A stretch of DNA of 64,000 nucleotides, from NCBI GenBank assembly GCA_025454875.1, contig JALONP010000002.1:1-64000 (forward strand). Reading direction: 5' to 3'. This document shows, piece by piece, positions 3,393 through 39,760 of the stretch (position 1 is its first letter; every line of letters begins with the position of its first letter). Below the pieces are notes generated by a model, which was not told the DNA's origin, searched no databases, and was given only the letters and a program-made list of their open reading frames with translations. The position numbers and the translations under genes were made by a program. This stretch comes from Bacteroidia bacterium. Its GTDB lineage: Bacteria; Bacteroidota; Bacteroidia; UKL13-3.

Positions 3393-3821
3393 TTACTTCT
3401 TCAACTTCAATAAAGATTTTGTGTAATCGATTACGGCCTTATATTTCATTAAGAAGTCGCTTCCCAAAACGCCATCAATAGACTCTACACCAAGTAGGTT
3501 GTATGTTTGGTTCACGTGTGATAGAGGCAATACCGCTACTTTAAACTGCTTGATTTTAAATTTACCACTTTGCCAATGCGCAAGTGTTGCAATTTTGGTT
3601 TCCATTTCAGCTACTCCCAATCCCACTGATTTGCTTTCGTTTGTCTTTACTTTGTTAGGTTCAATCAACCGTAATATTCGGTTATCATCCATCACCGTTT
3701 TACTTGCTCCAGTGTCAAGCAATAAACGGCAATTCGCATTATTGATGGTAAAATTCACGAACACATGAAAATTCTTCTTTTCAAGTTCAACGATATCGAG
3801 TTTTATTTTATGGATGCTCAT
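3393..3821 (-). CDS. Retropepsin-like aspartyl protease family protein
   Basis: A 142-residue single-domain protein of clan AA. The catalytic motif LLLDTGAS lies at residues 33-40 (Asp36), and the later GVLGSDFL segment is the usual hydrophobic-hydrophobic-Gly element of the fold. No signal peptide is visible, so it is probably cytoplasmic. Retropepsin-type proteins act as homodimers, each subunit giving one Asp. The substrate is unknown. The gene sits downstream of mdh but a terminator (3833-3860) separates them. Confidence 0.8.
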   Translation of the reverse strand: MSIHKIKLDIVELEKKNFHVFVNFTINNANCRLLLDTGASKTVMDDNRILRLIEPNKVKTNESKSVGLGVAEMETKIATLAHWQSGKFKIKQFKVAVLPLSHVNQTYNLLGVESIDGVLGSDFLMKYKAVIDYTKSLLKLKK

Positions 3822-3832
3822 TTTTAAACTAA

Positions 3833-3860
3833 AAAGGGCATCTCTTTCGAAATGCCCTTT
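3833..3860 (-). terminator. Rho-independent terminator after mdh
   Basis: A perfect 9-bp stem (AAAGGGCAT / ATGCCCTTT) with a 10-base loop, followed on the reverse strand by a T-rich run. It lies just past the mdh stop codon. Confidence 0.85.
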
Positions 3861-3877
3861 GCGAATATTTTATCAAA

Positions 3878-4819
3878 TTACAATGCGCCAATTTCTTTAA
3901 GAACATTGTTCATATTACGAACTGCATCTGCACTTTTGTTGAATAGGTCTTGCTCTTCGCTGTTTAGTTTGTAATCGATGATGGTTTCCCAACCATTTTT
4001 ACCAATTGTTACTGGCACACCTAAGCAAATATCTTTTTGTCCGTACTCGCCATCTAAGCTTACGCAGCAGGGCATCACACGCTTTTGGTCACGTACAATG
4101 CTTTCAACCAACAAAGCACTAGCAGCACCTGGAGCATACCATGCTGATGTACCCAATAGTTTGGTAAGAGTAGCTCCACCAACCATAGTTGCATCACTAA
4201 TTTCTTTTAATTTATCAGCAGATAATTGAGCCGAAACAGGAACGCCATTTAACGTTGCCAAACGCGTTAATGGAATCATAGTGGTATCTCCATGTCCGCC
4301 AATTACAGTTCCTTGAATATCAGCAGTAGGTTGGTTTAACGCCAATCCTAAATATCCTTTAAAACGTGCACTATCTAATAAACCTCCCATACCTATGATG
4401 CGGTTCTTAGGCAGGCCACTTGCTTTTAATGCAAGGTATGTCATGGTATCCATTGGGTTCGACACTACCACGATAATTGCGTTTGGCGAATGCTTTAATA
4501 CATTTTCAGTAACTGATTTAACAATATTGGCGTTGGTTCCAATCAGTTCTTCACGAGTCATGCCCGGCTTACGTGGGATACCCGAAGTAATTACGACCAC
4601 ATCTGAGTTTGCTGTTTTGCTGTAATCATTGGTTGTACCACTAATGCGAGTTTTCATTCCCAACAATGAAGTGGTTTGGTAAATATCCAACGCTTTGCCC
4701 TCAGCAAAACCTTCTTTTACGTCTAATAATACTACTTCGTCTGCCAACTCACGGTAGGCAATAACATCAGCCGTAGTTGCTCCTACTGCTCCTGCTCCAA
4801 TTACTGATACTTTAGTCAT
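3878..4819 (-). CDS. mdh: Malate dehydrogenase (NAD, LDH-like type)
   Basis: A 313-residue enzyme that interconverts malate and oxaloacetate with NAD in the citric acid cycle. The Rossmann motif GAGAVG is at 8-13 with the NAD-selecting Asp33. Substrate arginines lie in RKPGMTR (Arg83, Arg89). Asn121, Asp149, Arg152 and the catalytic His176 (GGHGD) are all present. The length is normal for the LDH-like bacterial malate dehydrogenases. It is transcribed alone: a -7-like box lies upstream at 4847-4854 and a terminator follows. Its promoter region directly abuts the repeat flank of the S23 gene at 4940. Confidence 0.97.
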   Translation of the reverse strand: MTKVSVIGAGAVGATTADVIAYRELADEVVLLDVKEGFAEGKALDIYQTTSLLGMKTRISGTTNDYSKTANSDVVVITSGIPRKPGMTREELIGTNANIVKSVTENVLKHSPNAIIVVVSNPMDTMTYLALKASGLPKNRIIGMGGLLDSARFKGYLGLALNQPTADIQGTVIGGHGDTTMIPLTRLATLNGVPVSAQLSADKLKEISDATMVGGATLTKLLGTSAWYAPGAASALLVESIVRDQKRVMPCCVSLDGEYGQKDICLGVPVTIGKNGWETIIDYKLNSEEQDLFNKSADAVRNMNNVLKEIGAL

Positions 4820-4846
4820 GTTTTATTGATAGATTAATTTTTGGTG

Positions 4847-4854
4847 CGAAAATA
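4847..4854 (-). promoter_or_regulatory. Probable mdh promoter -7 box
   Basis: The reverse strand reads TATTTTCG, a near match to TAnnTTTG, 27 bases upstream of the mdh ATG. The -33 position falls inside the short tandem repeat at 4871-4937 and reads TTA rather than TTG, so the repeat may have replaced part of the promoter. Confidence 0.4.
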
Positions 4855-4870
4855 ATTTTTTACGTGAGAA

Positions 4871-4937
4871 GTTTAAGATTGTTTAAAAAGTATTTAGGAT
4901 GGTTTAAGTTTATTTAGAACAGTTTAGGATTGTTTGT
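4871..4937 (+). repeat. Short tandem repeat, left flank of S23 gene 1
   Basis: About six degenerate units of 10-11 bp, consensus TTTARGATTG, run head to tail. The same unit appears in the opposite orientation at 5383-5455 on the other side of the S23 family gene, so the gene is bracketed by imperfect inverted repeats. Confidence 0.8.
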
Positions 4938-4939
4938 TT

Positions 4940-5341
4940 CTAGTTGGTTCTTCCTTTGAACTTAGTTCCCTTTATTTCTGTTTTATTGAGGTATAATATA
5001 AGGTTCTCAATTTTTTGTTCTATTGATTTTGCTTTGTTATAAAAATATTCGAATTGATCTTTTGTGATATAATTTCTATCCATTGCTTGATAAAGTTGTG
5101 ATTGAGTTTCTGTAGATGAACCTTGCGAAAATCCTAAAAACTGAACGAATTCCAATCTACTTCCTCTCCCATACCCTTCTACAATATTGTTCATAACCGA
5201 ACCTGAAGCATCATTAATTTGAGCGACTAATTTGTAATCCTTACTCCAAGGTAAAAGTTGTGTCTCCTCAAAAATTTCTTTAGACAATACTCTTGCCAAC
5301 TGCCATGCTTCAATATCTTCAAACCTTTTAAATGTGGCCAT
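4940..5341 (-). CDS. Four-helix bundle protein, S23/23S rRNA intervening-sequence (IVP) family, copy 1
   Basis: A 133-residue, almost all-helical protein with the hallmark N-terminal FEDIEAWQLAR segment (residues 7-17) and NNIVEGYGR in the second helix. The family was first seen in open frames within intervening sequences of spirochaete 23S rRNA genes and shares its fold with the Avd protein of diversity-generating retroelements. Its function is unknown; the fold forms homopentamers in solved members. There is no rRNA gene here. The gene is enclosed by repeats of opposite orientation (4871-4937, 5383-5455) and abuts the scoB stop, which suggests a small mobile or amplifiable unit. Confidence 0.9.
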   Translation of the reverse strand: MATFKRFEDIEAWQLARVLSKEIFEETQLLPWSKDYKLVAQINDASGSVMNNIVEGYGRGSRLEFVQFLGFSQGSSTETQSQLYQAMDRNYITKDQFEYFYNKAKSIEQKIENLILYLNKTEIKGTKFKGRTN

Positions 5342-5382
5342 TAATAAAAAAAAATTTTAAACTACACTTAAGCTACCCTCTA

Positions 5383-5455
5383 TTAAACAATCCCAAACAA
5401 ATTTAACCATCTTAAACTCTCTTCATTAACCAATCTTAAACCAATCCTAAACCCT
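5383..5455 (-). repeat. Short tandem repeat, right flank of S23 gene 1
   Basis: On the reverse strand this reads as repeated TTTAGGATTGG and TTTAAGATTGG units of 10-13 bp. It is the same unit as at 4871-4937 in inverted orientation. It ends two bases from the scoB stop codon. Confidence 0.8.
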
Positions 5456-5457
5456 CT

Positions 5458-6114
5458 CTACCCAACAACCATCTCCCTTACATCATCAGCAATCACAAGT
5501 CGGCCTAAGGTTTTTTCTTTAATATAATCTAGTGAAACGCCCGGAGCATATTCGATACACTTGAACCCTTGCGGTGTAATATCAAAAACACCCAATTCAG
5601 TTACCACTTTCTTCACGCATTTTAAACCCGTAATTGGCAACGAGCATTGGGCTAATAATTTGCTTTCGCCTGCTTTATTTACATGCTGCATAGCAACGAT
5701 AATATTCTTAGCACTTGCAACTAAATCCATTGCACCACCCATGCCCTTTACCATTTTACCTGGTATTTTCCAGTTGGCAATATCTCCATTATCGGCAACC
5801 TCCATGGCTCCCAAAATGGTAAGATCTACTTTACCTGCACGGATCATTCCGAAACTCATTGCTGAATCAAAAAAAGCGGAACCCGCAACCGTGGTAATGG
5901 TTTGCTTTCCTGCATTGATTAAATCTGCATCTATATCCTCTTCTTGTGGAAATGGACCAATCCCCAATAACCCATTTTCGGATTGCAATACCACATTTAC
6001 ACCTTGGGGTATATAATTCGCTACCAAGGTTGGAATTCCAATTCCTAGATTCACATAAAACCCATCTTGCAATTCTTGTGCGATGCGTTTTGCTATTTGA
6101 TTTTTGTCTAACAT
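5458..6114 (-). CDS. scoB: 3-oxoacid (succinyl-CoA:acetoacetate) CoA-transferase, subunit B
   Basis: A 218-residue family I CoA-transferase beta subunit. The SENG motif at 45-48 carries the catalytic Glu46 that forms the enzyme-CoA thioester. GIGIPTLV near residue 24 and the GAMEV and GGAMDLV segments are typical. With subunit A it moves CoA between succinyl-CoA and acetoacetate, for ketone-body use. The frame extends to 6174, but its first 20 residues are translated repeat; the start at 6114 gives the normal N-terminus. Subunit A lies 511 bases upstream, with an S23 gene in between, which is unusual because the two genes are normally adjacent. Confidence 0.95.
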   Translation of the reverse strand: MLDKNQIAKRIAQELQDGFYVNLGIGIPTLVANYIPQGVNVVLQSENGLLGIGPFPQEEDIDADLINAGKQTITTVAGSAFFDSAMSFGMIRAGKVDLTILGAMEVADNGDIANWKIPGKMVKGMGGAMDLVASAKNIIVAMQHVNKAGESKLLAQCSLPITGLKCVKKVVTELGVFDITPQGFKCIEYAPGVSLDYIKEKTLGRLVIADDVREMVVG

Positions 6115-6117
6115 ATT

Positions 6118-6166
6118 AATTTGATGATGAGATAATTTGATGATGAGATGATGAGATAATGATTTC
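6118..6166 (+). repeat. Short tandem repeat, left flank of S23 gene 2
   Basis: Two exact copies of the 16-mer AATTTGATGATGAGAT at 6118-6133 and 6134-6149, followed by a partial unit that runs into the S23 stop codon. The core GATAATTTGA recurs inverted at 6591-6632. Confidence 0.8.
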
Positions 6167-6575
6167 ATCGCCAAAAAACCAATACTTGATTTATAAATGA
6201 TTTTAGACTTAGTGATTTTTTACTGGAAGCTACTATTTTATTAATAGTCTTTTGAATAATCTCCAATTCAGTTAAAAGCTCGGCAGAATCAGGGTAAGAT
6301 GGAGCATGCTTGCATATTAGGAGCCAATAAAATGTTTCGTCTGCCTCCTTTGCTGCAATTTTAAATTTATGAATAAAGTCTGATTTGCTTTCAGCATTTT
6401 GAGCTTCATATGAATTTGCGCCAATAGAAGTTCCCGATTTGAGCAATTGATTAGCAACTACAAATCTCTTTTGCGATTCCAATATCTCAGTAAATTCAAT
6501 AATTTTTAATGAGAAGTTAAATGTCAACTTCATTATCAAATTATCCTCAAATGGTTGTTCAAACTTTCTGTTCAT
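6165..6575 (-). CDS. Four-helix bundle protein, S23/IVP family, copy 2
   Basis: A 136-residue helical protein of the same family as the gene at 4940 but a different subgroup: it has LLKSGTSIGANSYEAQ (about residues 46-61) and a KIAAKEADETFYWL helix, and lacks the FEDIEAWQ start. An internal ATG at 6533 could also serve, and the first 14 codons contain repeat-like sequence. It lies between scoA and scoB in the same orientation, filling the space from the scoA stop to the scoB start almost exactly. Function unknown. It is most simply read as an inserted unit rather than a CoA-transferase subunit. Confidence 0.87.
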   Translation of the reverse strand: MNRKFEQPFEDNLIMKLTFNFSLKIIEFTEILESQKRFVVANQLLKSGTSIGANSYEAQNAESKSDFIHKFKIAAKEADETFYWLLICKHAPSYPDSAELLTELEIIQKTINKIVASSKKSLSLKSFINQVLVFWR

Positions 6576-6590
6576 AATTCAATTTGACAA

Positions 6591-6632
6591 AAATTATCAA
6601 ATAATCACATTTGCTAATTATCAAATTATTGC
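6591..6632 (-). repeat. Short repeat, right flank of S23 gene 2
   Basis: Two AATTATCAAAT units (about 6592-6602 and 6616-6626), the inverse of the GATAATTTGA core on the other side of the S23 gene. The last unit overlaps the scoA stop codon at 6626-6628. Confidence 0.7.
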
Positions 6633-7324
6633 TTCGCAACAGTTCGCTGTTCAATTCGCTTCTCGTAGTCTTTTCCTTCAAATATTCGGTGCACGTATAT
6701 CCCAGGCAAATGAATATGATCAGGGTCTATATCGCCAGCAGGAACCAACTCCTCTACTTCTGCAATGGTAATTTTACCTGCCATGGCCACTAAAGGATTA
6801 AAGTTTCTTGATGTTTTACGAAAAACTAAATTACCTTGGGTATCTCCCTTCCATGCTTTCACAATTGCAAAATCCAACTCAAATGCATATTCAAGTAAAT
6901 ACTCCTTGTTATTAAATAAACGGGTTTCTTTTCCTTGAGCAACTTCGGTTCCAACACCTGCTGGGGTAAAAATTGCTGGCATTCCATATCCTGCTGCAAG
7001 CAAACGGGTGGCTAAGGTTCCTTGTGGTATTAAATCAACTTCCAACTCACCCGAAAGCAATTGACGTTCAAACTCGGCATTCTCGCCTACGTATGAAGCT
7101 ATCATTTTTTTAAGTTGTTTTTGTTGGAGCATTAACCCAATCCCAAAATCATCAACGCCTGCATTGTTGGATACACAGGTTAAATTGTTTACCCCCTTTT
7201 TAACCAATGCTGTGATGCAATTTTCAGGGATTCCACATAACCCAAAACCACCCAATCCAACAGTCATTCCACTTTGAATATCGGCAATGGCAACTTGGGC
7301 ATCTTTTACTACTTTATTAATCAT
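6626..7324 (-). CDS. scoA: 3-oxoacid (succinyl-CoA:acetoacetate) CoA-transferase, subunit A
   Basis: A 232-residue alpha subunit of the family I CoA-transferases. The glycine-rich GLGGFGLCGIPE at residues 23-34 forms the CoA-binding loop, and NNAGVDDFGIG is typical. The start at 7324 is preferred over an upstream frame extension that lacks the family N-terminus. It lies 13 bases after clpS on the same strand. Its partner scoB is displaced downstream by the S23 gene. The last codons overlap the flank repeat of that element. Confidence 0.95.
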   Translation of the reverse strand: MINKVVKDAQVAIADIQSGMTVGLGGFGLCGIPENCITALVKKGVNNLTCVSNNAGVDDFGIGLMLQQKQLKKMIASYVGENAEFERQLLSGELEVDLIPQGTLATRLLAAGYGMPAIFTPAGVGTEVAQGKETRLFNNKEYLLEYAFELDFAIVKAWKGDTQGNLVFRKTSRNFNPLVAMAGKITIAEVEELVPAGDIDPDHIHLPGIYVHRIFEGKDYEKRIEQRTVAKQ

Positions 7325-7337
7325 GCTATGTAATTTT

Positions 7338-7616
7338 CTACTCTCCAATGGTGGCACTTAATCCTTCATCAAGCAACGCTTGACACATGGCCATTAAATC
7401 TTGTTTTGAACCTTGTTTCACGGTACACTTGCCTTTAAAATGAACTAGCAACGCACATTGCTCTGCTTGCAATTCATCGTGTTTGCAAATACGCACAAGA
7501 CAATCAATAACGTGATCGAATGTGTTCACATCATCATTGTATAAAATTAAGGCCGAGCTATGGTCTACACCTTCTAATACTTCTTCTAATAATTCTTCTA
7601 CTAATTGTGCACACAT
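7338..7616 (-). CDS. clpS: ATP-dependent Clp protease adaptor ClpS
   Basis: A 92-residue adaptor that delivers N-degron substrates to ClpAP/ClpCP. The conserved LYNDDVNTFDHVI lies at 25-37; Asn27 and Asp28 line the N-degron pocket. The helix around CALLVHFKGK is also typical. It follows plsY after 5 bases and precedes scoA by 13, so the three are probably co-transcribed. Confidence 0.95.
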   Translation of the reverse strand: MCAQLVEELLEEVLEGVDHSSALILYNDDVNTFDHVIDCLVRICKHDELQAEQCALLVHFKGKCTVKQGSKQDLMAMCQALLDEGLSATIGE

Positions 7617-7621
7617 AACAG

Positions 7622-8260
7622 CTACTTCTCAATAGTTGGTTTTTTATTGAAACTAAACTTGTTTTCGTTACCTGAAATCAGCCTATTGATATTTGCTCTG
7701 TGTGTGTAAACCACAAGCAATCCAATGGCGGTGCAAAAATATAAAAAAACAGGTTCTTGCCAGTTATAAATCAACCCAACGTATAAAGGACTCAATACAG
7801 CAGCAGTCATTGACCCTAAAGAGATGTAACGGGTTGCCCAAACAACCAATACAAATGTAACCATGCAGCTTAGGGCAAGCCAGCCATTCATAGCCATTAC
7901 CATCCCAATCAGGGTTGCAATTCCTTTTCCTCCCTTAAAACGAGCAAATATTGGAAAAATATGACCGATAACGGCCGTAATGCCGAACCCCATTTGCCAC
8001 TGCAACACTGCACTTCCGGTTACCGACTCTGGTAAAAAAACAACCAAACTGGTAGCTGCAAAACCCTTTAAACAATCAATAGCCAATACAGCTAAACCTG
8101 CAGGTTTTCCCAATGTACGAAGTGTATTTGTTGCTCCAGCGTTTCCACTTCCATGTTCTCGCACGTCTACTCCAAAAAATACCTTACCCACCCAAACTGC
8201 CGTTGGGATTGAGCCAAGCAGGTATGCACCAACTATTAAAACTATATGCAATTGTTCCAT
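7622..8260 (-). CDS. plsY: Acyl-phosphate:glycerol-3-phosphate acyltransferase PlsY
   Basis: A 212-residue inner-membrane enzyme making lysophosphatidic acid from acyl phosphate and glycerol-3-phosphate, the first acylation in phospholipid synthesis. The three family motifs are visible: GSIPTAV near 16-22, GSGNAGATNTLR near 37-48 and FKGGKGIAT near 108-116. Hydrophobic segments fit the usual multi-spanning topology. It starts 2 bases after the 1444-residue exported protein gene. Confidence 0.95.
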   Translation of the reverse strand: MEQLHIVLIVGAYLLGSIPTAVWVGKVFFGVDVREHGSGNAGATNTLRTLGKPAGLAVLAIDCLKGFAATSLVVFLPESVTGSAVLQWQMGFGITAVIGHIFPIFARFKGGKGIATLIGMVMAMNGWLALSCMVTFVLVVWATRYISLGSMTAAVLSPLYVGLIYNWQEPVFLYFCTAIGLLVVYTHRANINRLISGNENKFSFNKKPTIEK

Positions 8261-39328: not shown

Positions 39329-39342
<14 letters not shown>

Positions 39343-39760
39343 CAACGCAAAAGCTCAATCGCAAGGTTGAGCTTTTTTAGTTTGTGGCCGGTTGAAGCTT
39401 GCTTCAAACAAGCAAGCAAACTAAAAAATAACCATGCGTAGCATGGGCTTTGGTATTGTTAAGCCTCCCTTTAGGTCCAACGAACGAAGTGAGTTAATCC
39501 TGTCTCCGCAACAACGCAAAAGCTCAATCGCAAGATTGAGCTTTTTTAGTTTGTGGCCGGTTGAAGCTTGCTTCAAACAAGCAAGCAAACTAAAAAAGAA
39601 CCATGCGAAGCATGGGCTTTGGAGTTGTTAAGCCTCTTCCTTAGGTCCAACGAACGTAGTGAGTTAATCCTGTCTCCGCAACAACGCAAAAGCTCAATCA
39701 CAAGGTTGAGCTTTTTTAGTTTGTGGCCAGTTGAATCTTGCTTCAAACAAGGAAGCAAAT
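39329..39760 (+). repeat. Tandem array of about 169-bp units that each begin with the 3' end of the fMet tRNA
   Basis: Unit A 39329-39497, unit B 39498-39667 and a partial unit C 39668 to about 39760. Each starts with TCCTGTCTCCGCAACAACGC, the last 14 bases of the tRNA plus flank, then a terminator hairpin (AAAAGCTCAA/TTGAGCTTTT), an AAGCTTGCTT-type stem and, in A and B, a CCATGC-gta-GCATGG-type palindrome. Units A and B differ at only about ten positions, several in loops. Reading frames across it are only the repeat translated and are not genes. The rest of the 554-base gap to guaB holds its promoter region. Confidence 0.9.
39349..39376 (+). terminator. Terminator of the initiator tRNA (first array unit)
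   Basis: AAAAGCTCAA / TTGAGCTTTT stem around an 8-base loop, followed by Ts. The same hairpin recurs in units B and C of the array. Confidence 0.85.

Follow-up and report, generated by a model that had tools for sequence, protein, structure and literature searches.

How does a gene of the S23 family come to lie between two inverted arrays of short repeats, in a spacer between protein genes? We met this question in a window of 64,000 nucleotides, the whole stretch of Bacteroidia bacterium DNA analyzed here (contig JALONP010000002.1, positions 1 to 64,000). Its scoB–mdh spacer holds an S23 gene inside inverted degenerate repeat arms at 4871-4937 and 5383-5455 (element 1), and a second S23 gene with repeats of its own (element 2) lies on the other side of scoB. 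The order on the minus strand is scoA, S23 gene 2, scoB, S23 gene 1, mdh:

3878..4819, minus strand: mdh, malate/lactate dehydrogenase family (PF00056, PF02866)
4871..4937, minus strand: downstream repeat arm of element 1, inverted relative to the upstream arm, 51 nt before the mdh start
4940..5341, minus strand: S23 / four-helix-bundle gene of element 1, 133 aa (PF05635 102.8 bits, TIGR02436 95.9 bits)
5383..5455, minus strand: upstream repeat arm of element 1, adjoining the scoB stop (inverted score 43 with its partner arm)
5458..6114, minus strand: scoB, CoA transferase subunit (PF01144), with a putative ATG start at 6114; the open reading frame runs 5458-6174 from a TTG
6117..6162, minus strand: downstream repeat arm of element 2, period 8/16 (inverted score 27)
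6165..6575, minus strand: second S23 gene, element 2, between scoB and scoA (PF05635 67.5 bits, TIGR02436 82.7 bits)
6576..6640, minus strand: upstream repeat arm of element 2, with approximate edges, running into the end of scoA
ORF 6626-7357, minus strand: scoA

Both S23 genes exceed the profile cut-offs of 33.8 bits for PF05635 and 24 bits for TIGR02436 ('four helix bundle protein'), the gene of element 1 with an E value of 1.4e-29 for PF05635. The left arm of element 1 (4871-4937) consists of units of 10-11 bp (TTTAAGATTG, TTTAGGATGG, TTTAGGATTG) that recur in the opposite orientation at 5383-5455. The arms are degenerate: the sole report of Tandem Repeats Finder is 5428-5453 (11 bp x 2.4). 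Aligned with each other, they score 43 inverted and 17 direct. Dinucleotide shuffles of both arms reached 43 in 4 of 5000 trials, and in a whole-window scan of 90-nt blocks 500 nt apart the pair ranks first, the runner-up independent inverted pair (score 31) lying at ~43.5 kb within coding sequence. These values confirm what a sequence-only reading had described, an S23 gene bracketed by inverted 10-11 bp repeats, and its placement of the block also holds: at one end the scoB stop (5458) is 2 nt away, and at the other the mdh start (4819) follows 51 nt downstream. The absence of rRNA that it noted stands as well: the neighbours are scoB and mdh, and an Rfam search of 3800-7700 gave no match. 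That chance or an assembly artefact produced the pattern in the window is hardly credible. The repeats are degenerate and AT-rich, and Tandem Repeats Finder scores only part of one arm, but the shuffles and the top rank in the window speak against it, and the recurrence of the pattern in hundreds of independent loci refutes it at the level of the class.

The repeats of element 2 differ from those of element 1, and this diversity extends to the rest of the genome. A profile search finds six PF05635 matches, and inspection by eye finds a different repeat at each of the six S23 genes; flank scores (L001 43, L004 31, the element of L005 27, L002 19, L003 16) show that only part of them match clearly. 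When the left arm of element 1 was searched against its own genome, the one significant match was its own right arm (E 0.0099). In this genome, then, the repeat does not make up a scattered family and the element is not multiplying. The most similar S23 pairs are orthologues across genomes and not recent copies within one, and no near-identical copies inside a single genome were found among the S23 loci fetched. The sequence-only reading had likened the block to a 'mobile or self-amplifying' unit and considered further genomic copies of its repeat. No such copies turned up beyond the partner arm, and we reject self-amplification; mobility fares better, since gene and arms come and go between relatives (G001 and the pair G050/G051, described below). 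Genome-wide dispersal of the REP kind was likewise rejected in G001, a genome of the same genus, where GTCGAACTG arrays are confined to one locus. By eye, the nine S23 genes of G001 have inverted flanking repeats of differing sequence. One of them (L048) is the intact counterpart, in the same place, of a decayed S23 gene in the genome of the window (L006, C25:78357-78605), and the arms of the two have drifted.

To see how general the matched arms are, we scored S23 loci by local alignment of the 200 nt before the gene with the reverse-complemented 200 nt after it. Both this flank length and the scoring scheme were set once, with a second mismatch penalty used in the G-U count given below. The median score of 104 distinct S23 loci with full flanks, from genomes of the host's family, is 34.5, against 18 for mismatched loci; among 49 other genes of the window, the median is 17 and the maximum 24. 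A GTDB scan with one S23 protein as query added 80 loci from many phyla, which are a non-random sample because they were chosen by the peptide patterns of the scan and ranked by similarity. Their medians are 31 in Bacteroidota and 33 in the others, against 16 for mismatched pairs, and a score of at least 26 is reached by 51 of the 80 loci and by 2.6% of the mismatched pairs; S23 loci are related and not independent, so such counts make separate events look more numerous than they are. Clear arms are missing at about a quarter to a third of the S23 loci. In cyanobacteria, where the sample consists of plasmid records, six of ten S23 loci score 46-63, with arrays of, for example, GGGAGTA, CCCTGTT or ACACCCT, which we take to be of the STRR type.

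The arms also have a characteristic period. Their autocorrelation peaks at 7, 14, 21 and 28 nt in every S23 set, and these peaks are absent from control sequence and from the arms of GxxExxY genes (see below). The two elements of the window are outliers (10-11 bp in element 1, 8/16 in element 2), and a universal 7-bp rule was rejected: it holds for the S23 class and fails for these two elements and for the GxxExxY arms. Neighbouring genes run in the same direction at 88 of 101 family S23 loci, compared with 22 of 52 gene triples in the window. Upstream arms often start at the preceding gene's stop codon or directly beside it, and downstream arms terminate beside the start codon of the next. 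Element 1 is probably a member of a widespread class of small elements, in which an S23 gene lies between matched inverted arms of degenerate short repeats at a gene junction. Elements of this class measure ~0.4-0.6 kb, and their gene usually runs in the same direction as its neighbours.

Comparison of relatives bears on the mobility of the class. The mdh–scoB junction without the block, which the sequence-only reading had suggested looking for in related genomes, is present in G001, the sole same-genus genome compared: it carries scoA-scoB-mdh without an S23 gene in either junction, an empty site, and its mdh is 96% identical. The reverse outcome, with every relative keeping the S23 gene between identical neighbours, is thus not what we found. 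The scoA-scoB junction of G001 carries CCGCGAAATCTGCGGG sequence, a kind found beside GxxExxY genes. Judging from G001, the mdh junction may have its own promoter and terminator, so that an operon junction is not certain at element 1.

The sister species G050 and G051 differ at two junctions. At one, the flanks are mostly 92-100% identical and the block inside is ~55% identical. This swapped block spans from the upstream stop codon to the first codons of the downstream gene, and the two cassettes encode S23 proteins of 54.6% identity and have different arm sequences. At the other junction, G051 carries an S23 cassette where G050 has 35 nt, between flanks of 88.7-92.5% identity. No target-site duplication is visible at the G050/G051 junctions. 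The metH junction varies more widely across the family: it holds an S23 gene with one repeat, an S23 gene with another, a GxxExxY gene with inverted arms of its own, a gene-less hairpin (L226) or a bare spacer of 5-9 nt. When near relatives are compared, inheritance in place accounts for most S23 loci. A further S23 junction of the sister species (L289 in G050, L290 in G051) has CTTTCGT-type repeats, and the G051 copy appears frame-broken.

Comparison of near relatives shows that the gene and its arms behave as one cassette, present, absent or exchanged, bounded by the stop codon of the gene upstream and the start of the gene downstream. In the functional sense, judged by presence/absence or exchange at orthologous sites, gene and arms are an exchangeable cassette. 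Their transfer as one unit is well supported. We infer the movement of S23 elements from such comparisons, none being seen directly; the S23 loci examined showed no gene resembling a transposase, no duplicated target site and no ongoing movement. The arms also tend to accompany the gene to new neighbours. Where the two loci of an S23 pair have different neighbours, similar arms occur in 0-4% of pairs at protein identities below 55%, in 9% at 55-65%, in 34% at 65-75% and in three of three above 75%. For example, L133 of Atribacterota and L146 of Omnitrophota encode S23 proteins of 74% identity and have arm units in common between different neighbours.

These comparisons bear on two alternatives. 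In the first, the arrays would be a mutational by-product: slippage and hairpin-templated copying would build them at any dispensable small gene, and ordinary recombination would move the S23 gene. The repeats do evolve fast and differ between orthologues, and the end sequence is not fixed. We nevertheless regard this explanation as quite improbable, given that nothing comparable occurs at the 49 control genes of the window, that the 7-bp period is common to many phyla, that similar S23 genes at unrelated sites have arms in common, and that the block edges coincide exactly with gene edges. In the second, S23 would be an ordinary small nucleic-acid-binding host protein and the arms its sites, controlling itself and its neighbours. 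S23 relatives of known structure are oligomeric in the PDB (2gsc and 2rld, five chains per entry), the arms adjoin start and stop codons, and the type of arm tracks protein similarity, all of which would suit autoregulation. Against it, the S23 gene changes neighbours and is absent or exchanged at one junction in sister species, there is no conserved target gene, and GxxExxY cassettes occupy the same junction. We hold autoregulation by a host gene to be unlikely.

The nuclease-like GxxExxY genes (PF13366/TIGR04256) also tend to lie between inverted degenerate arms (L220, L229, L230, L236, L244-L273), in some genomes at the metH junction that S23 cassettes use as well. Their arms have CACAGAG or CGCAGATTT units without a 7-bp period, and 16 of 28 score at least 26. 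A link to defence systems was considered and rejected: a PADLOC search gave no match for S23, and the match of GxxExxY to Cas4 is weak.

Gene-less hairpins occur close to an S23 element on plasmid pNe_5 of Nostoc edaphicum. The element lies between two ribonucleotide reductase subunit genes, in the opposite orientation, with GGGAGTR arms, and two gene-less GGGAGTR hairpins stand ~1 kb and ~4 kb from it. An exact search of the 265-kb pNe_5 record found no further GGGAGTR hairpins, and the arrays are all contained in ~6 kb around the S23 element, so that REP-like dispersal of one repeat was rejected here too. A gene-less GGGAGTR hairpin of the Nostoc plasmid (L302, NZ_CP054697.1 263750-263870) lies within an annotated DUF4351 gene.

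In the predicted fold of the element 1 transcript, MFE and centroid alike, the two arms pair with each other; as a whole the transcript is only mildly stable for its composition (z -1.5). Such a fold would bring the scoB stop next to the mdh leader. This raises the possibility that the arms act as an insulator at the RNA level, their stem being folded out or cut by RNase III, with selection on the stem keeping the arms matched and mobility rare or long past. The plan of the Coxiella IVS (PMC4990558) matches this, as do the predicted pairing of the arms, the strong co-orientation with neighbours, and arms that match within loci while the repeat differs among loci. The mismatches point the other way: sense-strand G-U mismatches are not enriched but rather the reverse (G-U versus A-C 123 vs 209; in stricter counts 11 vs 32 and 20 vs 27), although A-rich leaders partly confound these counts. 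These numbers do not support selection on a sense-RNA stem; the lack of G-U enrichment in the sense direction suggests that the stem may act in DNA, or that copying keeps the arms alike. The Nostoc plasmid element, opposite to both neighbour genes, and the recent swap and gain or loss in the sister species also argue against an RNA insulator, which we consider doubtful, yet the most serious of the competing explanations.

The exchangeable S23 cassette resembles several known systems in part. The intervening sequence (IVS) in the rRNA of Coxiella burnetii has an S23 ORF in ~0.43 kb, complementary ends forming a 28-bp stem and cutting by RNase III, and has been called selfish (PMC4990558). Element 1 is likewise a single S23 ORF between complementary ends, but between protein genes and not inside a 23S rRNA gene, and the arms of S23 elements are arrays of degenerate repeats, different from locus to locus. 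The heptamer repeats of Xanthomonas and Nostoc, described by Rehm and colleagues, form 70 inverted pairs in X. campestris; in sense they favour sites immediately behind stop codons, and in antisense sites immediately ahead of start codons. They are presented as arrays without a linked gene, and S23 is absent from the text (PMC4692102). The TAACTGA repeats of Beggiatoaceae and relatives form intergenic heptamer arrays near start codons, nearly all direct with one inverted case, and S23 is not reported (PMC4679880). Heptamer and STRR arrays share the 7-bp unit with the S23 arms as a class, though not with the two elements of the window, and Nostoc plasmid arrays of this kind are arms of S23 genes.

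As with S23 elements, REP/REPIN-RAYT systems combine small hairpins, gene-less copies and a linked protein gene. There the protein is a Y1 transposase and here S23, whose repeat sequence varies per locus; the genome-wide palindrome copies of REP systems also have no equivalent in element 1, with its left arm matching only its partner significantly. Insertion sequences and MITEs fit no better, given a single S23 ORF, arms that vary among loci and no duplication visible in G050/G051. The Avd protein of diversity-generating retroelements is comparable in being a small accessory protein with a helical bundle that acts on nucleic acid, but no retroelement parts were noted at the S23 loci read. In open-access papers we found no link between S23 genes outside rRNA and inverted repeat arms, which does not prove that none has been published.

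The best reading of these elements is that they are small exchangeable elements of the rRNA-IVS kind, outside rRNA and at gene junctions. The S23 protein would bind the arms of its own element as a hairpin, one unit per subunit; it is plausible, by analogy with the five-chain relatives, that an oligomeric S23 could read a row of short units. The element would spread when the whole unit is transferred and inserted. Its two arms may be kept alike by slippage and by copying templated on the hairpin, letting each locus drift to its own repeat sequence, and gene-less hairpins with an identical unit would be deletion derivatives. Hosts might tolerate the element because its folded arms bring the upstream stop close to the downstream start, much as rRNA IVS leave the rRNA working.

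Many genomes carry annotated S23 'four helix bundle' genes for which no function outside rRNA is given, and the heptamer arrays of cyanobacteria and xanthomonads have so far been described without an origin. Our comparisons join the two: heptamer-type arrays appear as the paired termini of S23 cassettes, which are gained, lost or exchanged exactly at gene junctions, a pattern that may explain puzzling repeat arrays reported from cyanobacteria and other bacteria. S23 proteins would thereby gain a concrete, testable substrate. In its widest form, the proposal is that S23 genes outside rRNA constitute phylum-spanning tiny mobile elements whose ends are mostly 7-bp matched arrays read by their own oligomeric protein, that the heptamers of cyanobacteria, Xanthomonas and Beggiatoaceae are largely such arms or their gene-less derivatives, and that the rRNA IVS are a special case that landed in rRNA. 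We put this forward tentatively, leaning slightly against it as a whole. If true, it would define a class of mobile elements recognized by repeat length and symmetry and not by a fixed end sequence.

Several further features were recorded along the way. On plasmid pANA02 of Anabaena sp. 90, cas6 and cas4 of a type I-D CRISPR locus are separated by an S23 gene whose flanks are of the GTGACAG type (L276). The S23 gene of L002 (C12:16629-16931 of the window's genome) has ATCTCAT-type repeats on both sides, as seen by eye, and that of L112 has them mainly downstream; by eye, the surroundings of both look like a type I restriction-modification locus. Elsewhere in the window, a 169-bp unit is repeated 2.5 times at 39329-39759, and in each copy a repeat of the 3' end of a neighbouring tRNA-like sequence (CCTGTCTCCGCAACA) precedes a hairpin resembling a terminator (AAAGCTCAATC...TTGAGCTTTTTT).
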